Source: an uncultured Pseudomonadales bacterium
GTDB taxonomy: Bacteria > Pseudomonadota > Gammaproteobacteria > Pseudomonadales > Azotimanducaceae
Length of the DNA stretch: 64,000 bases
Reading direction: 5' to 3'
NCBI GenBank assembly: GCA_958296165.1
Contig: OY282447.1
Location: forward strand, 1,488,001 to 1,552,000
Position 1 is the stretch's first letter. Every line of letters begins with the position of its first letter. A program made the position numbers and the translations under genes. Positions 53,438 through 60,977 of this stretch are shown piece after piece. Below the pieces are notes generated by a model. The model worked only from the letters and a program-made list of their open reading frames with translations. It had not been told where the DNA came from and searched no databases.

Positions 53438-54872
53438 CAGCTGCGCGGCCGAACACCGCCCCCGAGGTCAGGCCCGTGCCGCCCGGATAGTTGAAGTAGA
53501 ACAATCCTCCGACCAGCTCGCCGGCCGCGAACAAGCCGGGAATCGGCGCACCGTCTTCGGCCAGCACTTGTGCCGCACTGTCTACGGCCAAGCCGCCGAA
53601 GGTGAAGGTGATGCCGCACGTCACTCCGTATGCCTCGAACGGCGGCGTGTCCAGACGGTTCGCCCAGTTGGATTTCGGTATCGCCAGGCCGACGGCGCCG
53701 CGGCCGTCCTTGACGGTGGGGTCGAACGGCGTCGCCAAGTCTACGGCGGCGTTGAAACGCTCGATCTCCGCGACCAACGGCTCGGCGGCAACGCCTTCGC
53801 TGGCCAGCTTTGCCGCCAGCTCCGGGATGCTGTCGGCACTCAGCTTGGTAACTTGACGAATGCGGTATTCGTCGCGCAGCAAATGCGCCACCTGGGCATC
53901 GAACAGCTGCCAAGCGCATTGGCCGGGCTGGTCGAGCACTTCGCGGCCGTAGCGCGCGTAGGTGTAGTTGCGGAAATCCGCCCCTTCGTCGACGAAGCGG
54001 CGGCCGGCGTTGTTGACGAGAATGCCGAACGGGTAGGAGTGCTTCTGAAAGTTGTCGCCGACGGCGAGGTCGCCGAACTCCGGCGCGTTCATGTCCCAGG
54101 CCACGGCGTGGCAGCCGGACCAGTTGCCGCGCGTCGCAGCGCCTAAGTCCACCGCCATGCGGATGCCGTCGCCGGTGTTGAAGCGGGTGCCGCGCACTTT
54201 CGCCAAATCCCAGCCAGGGCCCAAGTAGCGCGTCCGCCAGGCGGGATTGGACTCGAAGCCGCCGCAGGCGAGAACGACCGCTTCGGCGCGCAGGCGTTCG
54301 TTGCCGATCGAGATTTCCAGGCCCTTGTCGAGGCGCTGCAGGGCAGTGGCGCGCACGCCGTAGCGGATGTGGACGCCGGCGTTCCTGGCAATGGCCGTTA
54401 AACTATCTACCAAACCGGGGCCGCCACCCCAGGCTTCCACCGTCAAGCCGCCCCAAAACCGCACTTTGCCCTCTACCTCGAACGACTGTCGGCCATACAG
54501 CGGCAAGAAGCGCACGCCCTTGTCGCGCATCCACTGCAAGGTCTCGAAGCTGGATTCGACGAGCTTCTCCGCCAAATCCGGATCGATGCGATATTGCGTC
54601 ACGCGGCCCAAATCGTCGTAGAACTGCTCGCGGCTGTAGCTGCCGAAATCCGTGCGGGCTAGCTCATGGGCGGTGAGTTCCGGCATCAAGCGGCGCAACT
54701 GGGCAACTCCAGCGTAGACGGTGCGCATGGCGCCGGCCGTGAAGCGCGAGTTGCCGCCCCGCAGCTCGAACGGCGCCCGCTCGATCACGGTGACTTCTGC
54801 GCCGCCCTCGCGAGCGGCGATGGCGGCATTCAGCGCCGCGTTGCCGCCGCCGATGACGACGACGTGCGTCAA
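53415..54872 (-). CDS. FAD-dependent fumarate reductase/tricarballylate dehydrogenase-like (TcuA-like)
   Basis: 485 residues. N-terminal FAD motif HVVVIGGGNAALNAAIAARE, then ELRGGNSRFTAGAMRT. The substrate domain contains FGILVNNAGRRFVDEGADFR and the C-terminal FAD contact ITFTFGGLAVDSAAQVLAED, PIPGLFAAGELVGGLFYFN, GTGLTSGAVFGRAAG. This order is typical of the SdhA/FrdA-like soluble flavoproteins such as TcuA and KstD-like enzymes. It shares an operon with a CoA-transferase (ATGA overlap) and putA, so a role in catabolism of an organic acid is likely; the substrate is unproven. Confidence 0.85.
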   Translation of the reverse strand: MTHVVVIGGGNAALNAAIAAREGGAEVTVIERAPFELRGGNSRFTAGAMRTVYAGVAQLRRLMPELTAHELARTDFGSYSREQFYDDLGRVTQYRIDPDLAEKLVESSFETLQWMRDKGVRFLPLYGRQSFEVEGKVRFWGGLTVEAWGGGPGLVDSLTAIARNAGVHIRYGVRATALQRLDKGLEISIGNERLRAEAVVLACGGFESNPAWRTRYLGPGWDLAKVRGTRFNTGDGIRMAVDLGAATRGNWSGCHAVAWDMNAPEFGDLAVGDNFQKHSYPFGILVNNAGRRFVDEGADFRNYTYARYGREVLDQPGQCAWQLFDAQVAHLLRDEYRIRQVTKLSADSIPELAAKLASEGVAAEPLVAEIERFNAAVDLATPFDPTVKDGRGAVGLAIPKSNWANRLDTPPFEAYGVTCGITFTFGGLAVDSAAQVLAEDGAPIPGLFAAGELVGGLFYFNYPGGTGLTSGAVFGRAAGANAARS

Positions 54873-56065
54873 CCGAGCACTCCCTGCTGGCGCAACTCCG
54901 CAATGGCCGCGTCGCTGTAGCCGAGTTCGGCAAGGATTTCGGCGGAGTGCTCGCCGAGCCGAGGCGGCGGGCGCGAGGGCGTGGCGGCGGCATCATCGAC
55001 GGTGAAGCCGGCGCCCAGAAAACGCAGCTTGCCGTCCGGCACGCCGTCCAGTTCGGCGATCGTGCCACGGTGCTGAAGCTGCGGGTTCTGCAACACTTCG
55101 GCAGGCCCTTTCAGTAGCCCGCAAGGCACGCCGGCGGCGCGGATGAGGCCGTTCCAATGTGCCGCTGTGTTGGTGAGGAAGTGAGCGGCGAACAGCTGCC
55201 GCAGCGCCGTCGCGTTGGCGCGCGCCGCAAGCTGTGTGGCGAAGCGCTCGTCGGCGAGCAAATCCGCGCGTCCAACGGCCTCGGCAAGCCGTAGGAACAG
55301 GCGGTGGGTGAGGGCGACTACCAGCAGCGTGCCGTCGCTGGTCTCGAACGTGCCGGCCGAACCCACCTGCGCCAGCGGGTTCGGCCCGACGCGGGGCATG
55401 ACGCGGCCGGTGCCCATGTAGTTGTAGTAGTTAAGGCCCATCAGCGCCATGCAGGATTCGAGCATGGAGACGTCCAGGAACGCGCCCTGGCCGGTGCGCT
55501 CGCGGCGCAACAGCGCCGCGTTGATGGCGGAGCTGGCGACGATCGCCGTGCCAGCGTCAGCCACGGCGAAGCCCACACGCACCGGCTGTTCTTGCGTGCC
55601 GGTGGCAAGGAACATGCCGGATTCGCCCTGCATGAGGTGATCGTAGGCGGCACGGTCGCTCTCGGGCCCGGTTTGGCCATAGCCCGAAATGGCGCAGTAG
55701 ACGAGGTTCGGCTTGATGGCCGTGAGGGCCTCGAAACCAATGCCGATTCGGTCCGGCGTGCCGGGGCGCATGTTGTGCAGCACCACATCGGCGCTCGCCA
55801 CGAGGCGATGCACCGCGCGCAAGCCATCGGCCTGCTTGAGATCGATGGCCAGGGAGCGCTTGTTGGCGTTTTGGCCGAGAAAGGCCGGGGGCAGGCCATC
55901 GGGATGGCTGGCGCGCATTTGATCGCCGCCGGCCGGCGACTCCACCTTGACGACGTCCGCGCCCATGAGGGCGAGCTGATACGCGCACAAGGGCCCGGCG
56001 TGAACATGCGTGAAGTCGACGATGCGGACGCCGTCTAGAAGATCAACGGGTTGCTGCTCGGGCAT
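54869..56065 (-). CDS. Class III CoA-transferase (CaiB/BaiF family)
   Basis: 398 residues. LLDGVRIVDFTHVHAGPLCA, ADVVKVESPAGGDQMRASHP, NANKRSLAIDLKQADGLRAV, NLVYCAISGYGQTGPESDRA, ALLRRERTGQGAFLDVSMLE (with Asp and Glu in the catalytic region) and PPPRLGEHSAEILAELGYS. It activates or transfers an organic acid as CoA ester, possibly the substrate or product of the flavoprotein encoded next. First gene of the three-gene minus-strand operon. Confidence 0.93.
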   Translation of the reverse strand: MPEQQPVDLLDGVRIVDFTHVHAGPLCAYQLALMGADVVKVESPAGGDQMRASHPDGLPPAFLGQNANKRSLAIDLKQADGLRAVHRLVASADVVLHNMRPGTPDRIGIGFEALTAIKPNLVYCAISGYGQTGPESDRAAYDHLMQGESGMFLATGTQEQPVRVGFAVADAGTAIVASSAINAALLRRERTGQGAFLDVSMLESCMALMGLNYYNYMGTGRVMPRVGPNPLAQVGSAGTFETSDGTLLVVALTHRLFLRLAEAVGRADLLADERFATQLAARANATALRQLFAAHFLTNTAAHWNGLIRAAGVPCGLLKGPAEVLQNPQLQHRGTIAELDGVPDGKLRFLGAGFTVDDAAATPSRPPPRLGEHSAEILAELGYSDAAIAELRQQGVLG

Positions 56066-57808: not shown

Positions 57809-59383
57809 ATGACAAACACGCTTCCGCCTTTTTCCCTCGCCGATACGGCCGGCGCCAACTTCGCCTTTCCCGCGGGGCCCACGCGAACCGCCACGCCGAC
57901 CCTGCTGTGCTTCGTCAAAGAGGATTGTCCCACCTGCAACTTGGTGATGCCGTTGCTGCAAGCCTTGCACGACAGCGGCGACGTAACAGTGCTCGCGCCG
58001 GGCCAGACCGCCGAAGGCAATCTCGTGCTGGCGGAACGCCACCATCTAACGCTGCCCCTGCTTGACGATTCCATCCTCAAGGTCTCCTTCGCCTACGACG
58101 TAGAGACCGTACCGCTGGTGCTGCTGGCGGATGCCGAAGGCGCTGAAATCGACCGCCTCGTAGGGTTCGATCGAGCCGAATGGCAGGCATTTTTCGCCAC
58201 TCACGCACCGAACGCCACGGTGGACTGGCAGGCGCTGCCTTCCTGGCGGCCCGGCTGCGGTTCGCTGACCCAAGACCCGGTCGTCGCCGAGCGCTTGCGC
58301 GCCGAATCCGAGAACAGCCCGCTACGCGCCCGCAAGATCGAAATCGCCCCGGCCGACGACGTTCACGAGTTCCTATTCGACCAAGGCTTCACCGACGGGC
58401 TGCCGGTGGTGCCGCCTACGCCAGAGCGGGTGCTGCGCATGCTCGGCGGCACGAGCCGTGATCCGCAGCAAGTCGTCGCTCAGATCCCGCCCAACTACGC
58501 CCCGGCGACGGTGGAGAAGATCGCCATCAACGCAGTGCTGGCGGGCTGCCGGGCTGAGTATCTGCCGGTGGTGATCGCCGCTCTCGAAGCGATCTGCACC
58601 AAAGAGTTCAACATTCACGGCGTAAACGCCACCACGATGGGCGCATCGCCGGTGCTGGTGGTGAACGGCCCGATCCGCGAGCGCATCGGCATGAACATGC
58701 GCTTGGGCGTACTTGGCCAAGGCACGCGCGCCAACGCCGCCATCGGCCGCGCCGTGCGCCTGGCAGTGCGCAACATCGGCGGCGCCAAGCCTGGCGGCAC
58801 GGAGCGCTCTACATTGGGCAATCCCATGAAGTTCACCATGTGCTTCCCGGAGTGGGAGGAGCGCAGCCCTTGGACGCCGTTGCACGTGGAGCGGGGCTTC
58901 GACGCCGCCGACTCGGTCGTGACGGCCTTCGCGATGACCAGCGGCCCGGCTTTGTGCGTAGACCAATCATCGCGCTCGGCTCGGCAGTTGGCCGGCAGCT
59001 TTGCGCTGTCGCTGGAGGCGGCCCACCACGTGCGCGCCCACAACGCTAGCGATGCGTTGCTGGTTGTCTCGCCCGAGCATGTAGACACGCTGTGGCGCGA
59101 CCAATTCACCAAGAACGACATCCGCGACCATGTGCAGCGCGTGACGGCCCGTCCGCTCGCCGACCTGGTCTCCGAGGACGACATTGGCGGCGGCTTGCCG
59201 CGCGAGCGCTTAGAGGCGATGCCCCCGGAACGCCGGCAAAGGCTCATGCCGAAGTTCGCCGCCAAAGAGAATCTGCACATCGTGGTGGCCGGCGCCGAAG
59301 CCGGCAAGTTCTCAGGCATATTCCATGGCTGGGCTGGCGGCGAAATCGGCTCCATCCCAGTTTCCCGCAAGATCGACAGCTAA
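57809..59383 (+). CDS. Thioredoxin-like protein with UGSC-associated C-terminal domain
   Basis: 524 residues. Residues about 30-125 form a thioredoxin-like domain with redox motif CPTC in LLCFVKEDCPTCNLVMPLLQ and a cis-proline region VETVPLVLLAD. A GCGS motif follows (WRPGCGSLTQDP). The long C-terminal domain (DQGFTDGLPVVPPTPERVLR, TVEKIAINAVLAGCRAEYLP, GPALCVDQSSRSARQLAG, IVVAGAEAGKFSGIFHGWAG) is of a type I associate with UGSC-family neighbours. It ends 20 bases before the UGSC selenoprotein gene, in one operon. Probably a redox partner; reaction unknown. Confidence 0.8.
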   Translation: MTNTLPPFSLADTAGANFAFPAGPTRTATPTLLCFVKEDCPTCNLVMPLLQALHDSGDVTVLAPGQTAEGNLVLAERHHLTLPLLDDSILKVSFAYDVETVPLVLLADAEGAEIDRLVGFDRAEWQAFFATHAPNATVDWQALPSWRPGCGSLTQDPVVAERLRAESENSPLRARKIEIAPADDVHEFLFDQGFTDGLPVVPPTPERVLRMLGGTSRDPQQVVAQIPPNYAPATVEKIAINAVLAGCRAEYLPVVIAALEAICTKEFNIHGVNATTMGASPVLVVNGPIRERIGMNMRLGVLGQGTRANAAIGRAVRLAVRNIGGAKPGGTERSTLGNPMKFTMCFPEWEERSPWTPLHVERGFDAADSVVTAFAMTSGPALCVDQSSRSARQLAGSFALSLEAAHHVRAHNASDALLVVSPEHVDTLWRDQFTKNDIRDHVQRVTARPLADLVSEDDIGGGLPRERLEAMPPERRQRLMPKFAAKENLHIVVAGAEAGKFSGIFHGWAGGEIGSIPVSRKIDS

Positions 59384-59403
59384 CGAGATTCACAGGAGGC
59401 AAC

Positions 59404-59922
59404 ATGACCACCATTCTCGATCCCACCGACGAACGCGTGCCCGTCGCTCGCTCGGTGACTCTGCGCCCCGGCGCGGTCACGGGCAGTGTGGCGCTGTTGG
59501 ACATCTCCAAGCCGCGCGGCAATGTGTTGCTCGACCGCTTGGAGCAGCGCTTGGCCGAACGCCTGCCAGGCGCGACGATCAATCGCTACGCGAAGCCCAC
59601 CTTCACCAAGCCGGCGCCAACGGCGCTGCGCCAGGACATCCTGGCCAACAACGATTTCGTGATCGAGGCACTCGCCGACTGAGGCTCCTGTACCACGTGC
59701 AGTTTGCATGACACGGTATGGTTCGAGATTCAGGGCGTGCCTTCGGTGAGCATCGCGTCCGCGGCGTTCATGGACGCCGCGGCGACGCAGGCCAAAGCGC
59801 TCGGCATGGACGACGCCAAGTGCGTATTCGTCGACCATCCGATCCAGGATGCGACGGATGAGGAGATGCGAGCGCGAGCGGATGCTTGCGTGGACGCAGT
59901 GGTTGGGGCGCTGACGGCGTGA
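59404..59922 (+). CDS. UGSC-family selenoprotein with in-frame UGA (Sec) codon
   Basis: Read straight, the frame stops at TGA 59680-59682 after FVIEALAD, but the same frame continues GSCTTCSLHDTVWFEIQGVP to a stop at 59920-59922. The resulting ALAD-U-GSCTTCSLHD is the defining motif of the UGSC protein family, in which U is selenocysteine (Cys in some members). The full product is 172 residues. SD AGGAGG lies at 59394-59399. A hairpin just after the UGA (59688-59721) is a plausible bacterial SECIS. The residues after the UGA keep conserved-looking pattern (VPSVSIASAAFMDAAATQAK), arguing against a nonsense mutation. Predicted redox role with the thioredoxin-like gene upstream and the ferritin-like gene downstream. 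Confidence 0.88.
59688..59721 (+). promoter_or_regulatory. Candidate bacterial SECIS hairpin
   Basis: Starts 5 bases after the UGA codon. The outer stem CUGUACC pairs with GGUAUGG (7 pairs, two of them G-U), then an internal loop (A opposite ACAC), then CGUGCA with UGCAUG (6 pairs, one G-U) closed by a GUU loop. Position and G/U apical loop fit a SelB-binding bSECIS, although the loop is short. Read by eye; not folded computationally. Confidence 0.55.
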
Positions 59923-60977
59923 GCGCGGCCGCGGCTGAACGGCAGCTCGTCTTCAGCGCGGAGGAACTGCTCACGGAGCACGACTACGCCGCTCCGCACG
60001 TGATCGACGGGCAACGTCTGCATGGCGGCTTCGACGATCGCGGCCGGTACGTATCGCCACGCTCGTTGGGCCGCCGCGTTGCCATCGACAACTGGACGGC
60101 GGCGCTGCGCGAGCGCGGCGGCGACTTGCTGACAGCGGACGCTTCGCTGCTCACCGGGCCGCGCGTGCCGAACGTGGCGCAACAGCGCCTGCTGATCGAA
60201 GACGGCGTTACGCGCCCGTTCTGGAACGGCCTCACCATCACCGGCAAGATCGAAGGCCGCGGGCGGATGATCGCCGAGATGCCGTTCCCGGACTTGCAGG
60301 CGATTGTCGTCGAGGACGTCAGCGGCATGGCATTGGGCCATCTGAGGAAAGGCCTGCTCAAAGCGCACGGAATGGACGAAGGCGGCGAGCCAGACAAGGG
60401 CATCGGCGGCCACGATGTGATGTGGTTCGTGGCCCGCGATCTCGCCTTCGGCGCGAATGCGCATGCAGATGTCGAGCCGCCGGGCGGGGTCGCAAGGCCG
60501 GAAGAGGGCGCTCGGCGGATGCCGGAAATCGATTTGCCCTACGAGATGTCGCTTTCGTTCTTGATGAACTTGCTGCTCATCGAGTTCCGCGCCGAGATAG
60601 GCTTTGCGGGATCCCAAGCCACTTTCCGCACGCCAACGCTGTTCCGACAACGCCGTACGCAAGCGGAGGAAGCGGCAGAAATCGTTGAGCGGATTCGCAC
60701 CGACGAGCTCATCCACGTCGAGTCGCTGCGCCTCTACATCGGCGAGTTGCGCTCGCTCACCATCAAGACCAGCGACGGCGGCGCCATGCCCGGCGCTCGC
60801 TTGGTGGACCGATTTTGGAACGGCCTCTTGCAGTGGGCGACGGTGGAGCAGCCGCGCCTAACGGCCGAGCGCCTATACGAAGCGCTGCGAACGGAAATCC
60901 TCGCCAGCGACGGTGGCGACCGCCTGCTGCGCGAGTTCAACGCCCTCGCCGACCCGGGTTACTCGCTGGCGGCGTGA
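59919..60977 (+). CDS. Ferritin-like-fold protein of the UGSC operon
   Basis: About 352 residues from GTG 59919, whose GTGA overlaps the selenoprotein stop. Two helical segments carry carboxylate-histidine patterns of a diiron or ferritin-like site: FLMNLLLIEFRAEIGF and AEIVERIRTDELIHVESLRL (ExxxxxDExxH). The N-terminal half (EELLTEHDYAAPHVIDGQRL, ALRERGGDLLTADASLLTGP) is unrecognised. Coupling to the UGSC gene points to a shared redox pathway; substrate unknown. Confidence 0.7.
   Translation: MSAAAAERQLVFSAEELLTEHDYAAPHVIDGQRLHGGFDDRGRYVSPRSLGRRVAIDNWTAALRERGGDLLTADASLLTGPRVPNVAQQRLLIEDGVTRPFWNGLTITGKIEGRGRMIAEMPFPDLQAIVVEDVSGMALGHLRKGLLKAHGMDEGGEPDKGIGGHDVMWFVARDLAFGANAHADVEPPGGVARPEEGARRMPEIDLPYEMSLSFLMNLLLIEFRAEIGFAGSQATFRTPTLFRQRRTQAEEAAEIVERIRTDELIHVESLRLYIGELRSLTIKTSDGGAMPGARLVDRFWNGLLQWATVEQPRLTAERLYEALRTEILASDGGDRLLREFNALADPGYSLAA

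Follow-up and report, generated by a model that had tools for sequence, protein, structure and literature searches.

Organization of the locus

The DNA analysed here (the window) is a stretch of 64,000 nucleotides from a genome represented by one contig of 5.07 Mb (98% complete). Its closest relatives bearing a name are assigned to Gammaproteobacteria/Pseudomonadales. At positions 59404-59922 it contains a gene of the UGSC family, which is preceded on the same strand by a gene encoding a thioredoxin-like domain followed by a domain here called UP. It is very probable that the former is a genuine selenoprotein gene and that some form of selenocysteine (Sec)-based catalysis takes place alongside UP. 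The features of the locus are as follows.

57809-59383, plus strand: partner protein with an N-terminal thioredoxin-like domain carrying CPTC and then the UP domain (a homologue lies upstream of UGSC in relatives; the N-terminus gives Foldseek thioredoxin/ResA matches)
58376-59380, plus strand: UP domain, about 335 residues (co-occurrence with UGSC)
59394-59399, plus strand: ribosome-binding site AGGAGG, 4 bases before ATG 59404 (direct reading)
59404-59922, plus strand: UGSC-family selenoprotein gene, 172 residues, Sec at residue 93 (PF24696 and NF041046 matches, translation, TGA at the same codon in relatives)
59680-59682, plus strand: UGA inside the frame, predicted to encode the selenocysteine (U93) of a U-x-x-C-x-x-C motif (translation, comparison of homologues)
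59696-59701 and 59705-59710 (arms) with loop GUU 59702-59704, plus strand: hairpin resembling a bacterial Sec insertion sequence (bSECIS) (conserved pairing in relatives)
59919-60977, plus strand: next reading frame downstream, its GTG overlapping the stop codon of UGSC (no NCBIfam match; no homologue in the available stretches of 116 UGSC loci)

The UGSC reading frame

The frame starts at ATG 59404, encodes 92 residues up to TGA 59680-59682 and, as the first-pass annotation of this DNA had stated, reads on as GSCTTCSLHD for 79 codons in all until TGA 59920-59922; ordinary annotation would indeed cut the gene at the internal TGA. The assignment to the UGSC family, initially proposed from the motif, is borne out along the full length of the read-through protein, which matches Pfam UGSC (PF24696) with 160.4 bits over residues 3-171 (cut-off 25) and reaches 166 bits to NCBIfam UGSC_fam (NF041046), whose cut-off is 125. 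Among 48 aligned members, with Sec read as Cys, the block D92-(Sec/Cys)93-G94-S95-C96, of which residues 93-96 are the UGSC motif itself, is invariant, and Cys 99 is nearly so. Comparison with 66 relatives reveals a coding-type substitution pattern on both sides of the TGA, with a third-position share of 0.59 before it and 0.61 after it. Moreover, the best 80 of 422 relatives obtained from a scan of named genomes carry TGA at this codon in every case (80/80), and all of them read on, so that the homologues ending here that the first-pass annotation had envisaged as a refutation were not encountered. That annotation had also relied on the absence of interruptions after the TGA, and here only the extension itself stands: among the 199 comparable TGAs of the window (those ending an open stretch of at least 90 codons, in DNA of 65% GC), 58 are also followed by at least 79 open codons, which leaves it with little weight, and the uninterrupted frame was rejected as evidence by itself. 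Read-through is accepted because of the homology, that is, the full-length domain and the TGA of the relatives, and not because of the length of the open frame.

UGSC has been described as a prominent selenoprotein family in marine samples (PMC2398784, PMC9402790, as far as the consulted parts of these texts go), and the gene, ordinary as a selenoprotein, adds a member to a family that was published no later than 2008. It matches the family along its full length, has Sec at the family position and does not differ from it in kind, except for its place after the gene of a thioredoxin-UP protein. According to the consulted part of a 2026 review (PMC13188914), what such families do is for the most part still uncharacterized.

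Selenocysteine machinery and the UGA codon in relatives

The presence of this gene had led to the prediction that sel genes would be found elsewhere in the genome, and all of them are there. selA (526 bits) lies just before selB (406 bits), which is directly followed by a tRNA-Sec with anticodon UCA (71.6 bits; ARAGORN agrees), and selD reaches 245 bits, so that the four components selA, selB, selC and selD expected for bacterial selenoproteins are complete. The selD match (L134, contig 1, 4406163-4407065) is located inside a 750-codon open frame that greatly exceeds the length of selD and is possibly one of the known SelD fusions.

In 58 related genomes, UGSC is detected in 36 and a tRNA-Sec match in 39; both are found in 34, UGSC only in 2, the tRNA match only in 5 (one of them, G439, doubtful at 49.9 bits) and neither in 17. 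Exactly one TGA is present in 74 of the 80 matched UGSC stretches of these genomes, its position having been checked in the fetched loci only. Among the other six, one contains two TGAs and five contain none; the latter comprise three fragments missing the Sec position, one match below cut-off and one paralogue (L139, G414 contig 111, 9475-9957) that lacks Sec together with the whole motif in a genome having tRNA-Sec, and that is perhaps a non-catalytic form. Two genomes are counterexamples, having a UGSC gene with a single TGA but nothing that matches tRNA-Sec, namely G398 (81% complete) and G430 (91% complete, 550 contigs).

A larger draw of 398 genomes from the phylum, in which only the best 8 candidates per genome for UGSC or 5 for UP were scored, contains UGSC in five: the window's own genome (G000), G139, G311, G143 and G277. 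The first three combine UGSC bearing TGA with a strong tRNA-Sec match, and in G311 UP and UGSC directly follow the tRNA-Sec gene and share its strand. In the remaining two, G143 with an intact gene and G277 with a frame-broken one, the codon at the UGA position is TGC (Cys) and there is no strong tRNA-Sec match, thereby supplying the Cys homologues, both distant, with which comparison had been advised. The Rfam gathering score is an unreliable screen for tRNA-Sec, since 188 of the 398 genomes pass it and one match near 50 bits, once checked, was a tRNA-Ser. ARAGORN identifies the best tRNA-Sec-like match of G143 as tRNA-Ser and those of G139 and G311 as tRNA-Sec; the matches of G277 are taken from the score screen. 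The G277 gene is represented by two loci (L101 and L104) and was left out of the alignment.

UGSC genes 73-78% identical to the one in the window, resembling the gammaproteobacterial ones, are also found in metagenome-assembled genomes labelled Klebsiella pneumoniae, Planctomycetaceae and Thermoanaerobaculia (L069, L080 and L085), where labels are perhaps wrong or bins mixed. The consulted part of PMC5330540 reports selenoproteins with a UGSC motif in bacteria whose tRNA-Sec anticodon is CUA, which implies TAG in those UGSC genes.

A second UGSC gene of the same genome (L016, contig 1, 3809921-3810427, minus strand) is about 32% identical and has an in-frame TGA and the same hairpin. Distant paralogues, this copy included, score 113-124 bits, just under the NCBIfam cut-off of 125 (6 of 10 scanned). 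Together with two PrdB-like genes described below, the genome thus has at least four candidate selenoprotein genes.

A conserved hairpin downstream of the UGA

The RNA downstream of the UGA can form the hairpin CGUGCA-GUU-UGCAUG, with 6 bp and 19 nt between UGA and loop. The rule for bSECIS elements set out in the consulted part of PMC13188914 (an apical loop of 3-9 nt with G in the first two positions, an upper stem of 4-16 bp and a distance of 16-37 nt from the UGA) agrees with the GUU loop, the stem and the spacing observed. The full set of six pairs is formed in 113 of 114 sequences that bear TGA, comprising the window and 113 loci; left out of this count were L017 (the window again), L101/L104, the Cys form L102, and L141, L145 and L146, the last three of which miss the innermost pair. 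When the comparison is reduced to 46 distinct sequences, including two fusion-type genes, 98.9% of cells are paired, against 1.4-66.7% with the partner slid by 1-3 bases, and the covariation score is reached by 1 of 500 shuffles. A swap from C-G to G-C at one pair occurs in 3 of the 46, where Cys 99 becomes Trp. The codons of the stem are nearly frozen across the window and 80 loci (Ser AGT 81/81, Leu TTG 80/81, Thr ACG 81/81), as compared with frequencies of 11%, 16% and 35%, respectively, for the same codons in UP genes. The relatedness of the sequences inflates all of these hairpin and codon counts.

Several observations detract from this assignment. The single pair changed on both sides is matched by 96 of 500 shuffles, and the innermost pair is absent in 3 of the 46 distinct sequences, fusion-type genes among them. 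The six pairs arise in 7.7% of synonymous recodings, and the folding energy of the window sequence is ordinary relative to such recodings (z -0.78, 21% as low), by which single-sequence folding energy was rejected as proof of a bSECIS. The case for a bSECIS rests on conservation; the stability of the single sequence is not unusual.

The upstream partner and the UP domain

A homologue of the partner protein is located upstream of UGSC on the same strand at 80/80 loci, five of which are truncated where the available DNA ends. The gap between the two matches ranges from 8 to about 170 bases, reaching 581 in one locus (L078). UP is also present within the fetched flanks at 35 further loci (34 distinct places, perhaps not all from different species), and 20 of these 35 lack the thioredoxin part and match UP alone. 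UP follows UGSC, instead of preceding it, in L101/L104 and L103, lies on the opposite strand in L105, and is fused to UGSC in one frame in L145 and L146. The draw of 398 genomes yields UP in precisely the five that have UGSC; if the window's own genome is left out, the agreement of 4 in 397 has a chance of about 1e-9, a figure obtained by scoring only the best few candidates per genome. The second UGSC copy of this genome argues against an obligate association, as it is without UP in the fetched 14 kb. A second UP of this genome is found at 1438507-1439469, in a 355-codon frame judged to be without the thioredoxin part.

No Pfam or NCBIfam family can be assigned to UP from 43 members: the families matched at E<0.001 bear thioredoxin-type names and the rest are isolated weak matches. 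A structural model of the partner protein reached a predicted local distance difference test (pLDDT) score of 87.2 and a predicted template modelling (pTM) score of 0.65, and Foldseek returned only the thioredoxin part among the matches listed. Homology of UGSC itself to the UP or thioredoxin domain was rejected, with hhalign values of 0.1-0.4%. From the association of the two genes we infer that their products make contact and that UGSC works with the protein encoded upstream.

The pairing of UP with UGSC is apparently new, as none was found in the searched literature (supplements lay outside that search). The closest precedent is the UGSC/Unknown_1 fusion of PMC2398784, in which UGSC is fused to another conserved domain as it is to UP in L145 and L146; unlike here, separate neighbouring genes or strict co-occurrence are not described in the consulted part of that paper. 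One might guess that Unknown_1 equals UP.

Predicted fold of UGSC

The AlphaFold2 model of UGSC (pLDDT 93.9, pTM 0.88) displays alternating strands and helices, with residue 93 placed between strand 85-91 and helix 94-109. Foldseek matches are weak, with template modelling (TM) scores of about 0.5, NagZ coming first and being followed by azoreductases, flavodoxins, lumazine synthases and others; by sequence, UGSC has 0 matches in the PDB at E 10. A thioredoxin-like fold had been suggested in 2008 from ocean sampling (PMC2398784, consulted in part), but the order of strands and helices in the model is Rossmann/flavodoxin-like and not that of a thioredoxin. The predicted fold of UGSC would thus be Rossmann/flavodoxin-like rather than the printed one, which is apparently new.

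Possible relation to the Sec subunits GrdB and PrdB

PrdB and GrdB are the Sec subunits of proline and glycine reductases. Profile comparison of UGSC with a PrdB-like family gave an hhalign value of 91% (E 9.4e-7), with U-x-x-C aligned on U-x-x-C. When the comparison was repeated with other settings and a broader alignment, the scores were 39.4 and 34.4, while 60 column-permuted controls for each reached at most 22.0 and 17.6. The other controls stayed low as well: 11.8 for the reversed profile, 12.8 for the UP domain and 14.9 for the thioredoxin domain, while nine further families taken from the loci, a Rossmann-fold short-chain dehydrogenase/reductase family among them, did not exceed 19.3. 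Masking residues 93-103 still left scores of 38.4 and 34.0, hence the similarity does not depend on the motif. Searching 6876 translated frames of the loci with a hidden Markov model (HMM) of UGSC retrieved, after UGSC itself, one true GrdB (E 0.0054 and 0.012 for two copies of one gene), and many UGSC frames are among the weak matches of the PrdB-like HMM, from E 0.04. In addition, the Cys form of G143 matches GrdH (E 0.0013) and GrdF (E 0.0022) over the Sec segment.

A number of results tell against this kinship. The repeated comparisons fell to 71% and 38%, and the hhalign E-values are those of single comparisons. The GrdH/GrdF match is found in only 1 of 48 UGSC members, and PF07355 matches none of the 48 at E 1. 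The UGSC HMM finds no PrdB-like frame up to E 10 in the 6876 frames, and no PrdA/GrdE-type (pyruvoyl) family is among the matches of the 43 UP members at E 1. UGSC also stays far from the TIGR01918 cut-off, its best score being 10.9 bits against 65.45. As for structures, PrdB-like proteins have only two weak, unrelated-looking matches in the PDB by sequence.

The resemblance to the PrdB-like/GrdB families (TIGR04483, TIGR01918, PF07355) lies in U-x-x-C, extended in GrdB to U-x-x-C-x-x-C like U93, C96 and C99 of UGSC. According to the consulted part of PMC13188914, this is the motif of GrdB, the substrate-binding subunit of glycine reductase, to which thioredoxin supplies electrons. UGSC differs in having 172 residues and no PF07355 match, in having UP as its partner, and in that no PrdA/GrdE-type partner was seen. 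Overall, the profiles link UGSC weakly but repeatedly to PrdB/GrdB; it is not classed with them, but it may work like them. This possible kinship is apparently new too, within the same literature search.

PrdB-like selenoproteins are present in the same genomes. This one has two such genes with an in-frame TGA in U-x-x-C, L147 and L177 (contig 1, 122811-123704 and 4639186-4639776). One scanned PrdB-like gene of this genome scores 71.7 bits to TIGR04483, below the cut-off of 300, and the first match of PF07355 in the genome (L137) is a PrdB-like gene with TGA.

Genomic neighbourhood

The genes recurring around UGSC in 81 stretches encode acyl-CoA dehydrogenase (35), TauD dioxygenase (27), RraA-like proteins (26), major facilitator superfamily transporters (23 and 14) and family III CoA-transferase (22, including the window). 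Ten neighbour clusters were named, each from one representative, and a 68-locus cluster was set aside as presumed antisense frames. These neighbours would point to catabolism. In the window, the family III CoA-transferase gene lies at 54869-56065 on the minus strand; those near UGSC elsewhere are about 30% identical to it and arranged otherwise. In G139, a gene resembling thioredoxin reductase, which scores 169 bits to TIGR01292 and stays below its cut-off, ends 12 bases before UGSC. The frame at 59919-60977 is perhaps co-transcribed with UGSC, and was rejected as part of a conserved module because the available stretches of the 116 loci contain no homologue.

Proposed mechanism and alternatives

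We tentatively favour, with a rough probability of 0.4, a reading in which UGSC is related, in reduced form, to the catalytic domain of GrdB/PrdB and forms, with UP and often a built-in thioredoxin, a two-component Sec-dependent reductase that would break a bond in a small organic compound. With the machinery and the hairpin both present, SelB and Sec-tRNA(UCA) would read UGA 59680 as selenocysteine, directed by the hairpin 19 nt downstream. The product would fold as a small Rossmann/flavodoxin-like domain in which Sec, as part of U-x-x-C-x-x-C, immediately precedes a helix. It would supply a nucleophilic selenol, in the manner of GrdB/PrdB, while the UP domain would hold the small organic substrate to be attacked; a selenenyl-sulphide between U93 and C96 would then form, to be reduced by the CPTC thioredoxin domain of the partner itself. 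By analogy with glycine reductase, this selenol attack followed by CPTC reduction might be the likeliest mechanism, although we put it below even odds. The cycle is plausible because of the U-x-x-C-x-x-C spacing, the thioredoxin domain of the neighbour and the thioredoxin-reductase-like gene in G139.

Much of the same evidence would also fit a Sec peroxidase or disulphide reductase built on a Rossmann-like scaffold and reduced by the neighbouring thioredoxin domain, with no small-molecule substrate of the glycine-reductase type. Sec just before a helix together with Cys 96 and the nearly invariant Cys 99, the thioredoxin domain in the adjoining gene and the thioredoxin-reductase-like gene beside UGSC in G139 are all expected of such an enzyme, and we regard it as a serious possibility, while the recurrent catabolic neighbours suit an enzyme of a degradation route better and the profile link goes to GrdB/PrdB. 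It is unlikely, on the other hand, that UGSC has the thioredoxin-like fold and acts as a general thiol/selenol oxidoreductase, its neighbour being just another redox protein. Although the fold supposed in 2008 and the CPTC domain next door would agree with this, the confident model alternates strands and helices and finds its weak matches among NagZ, flavodoxin, azoreductase and lumazine synthase, UGSC compares with the thioredoxin part of the neighbour at only 0.4% in hhalign, and the conserved UP domain would be left without a role. Finally, an ordinary stop or a decayed gene yielding only the 92-residue product, for which the frequency of long open extensions might be invoked, has practically no chance in view of the full-length domain match, the TGA of the 80 fetched relatives, the coding-type substitutions after it, the conserved hairpin and the complete Sec machinery.

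Implications

Three points are of interest to the specialist: the association with UP, the predicted fold and the possible link to GrdB/PrdB. Should UP accompany UGSC constantly, purification and assays would have to treat the two proteins as one unit. Should the kinship with GrdB/PrdB be true, the substrates to look for would be amines, betaines and related compounds rather than disulphides and peroxides. And if UGSC and UP do form a reductase of the kind favoured here, one of the commoner marine selenoproteins would be a catabolic enzyme and not a thioredoxin-like redox protein.
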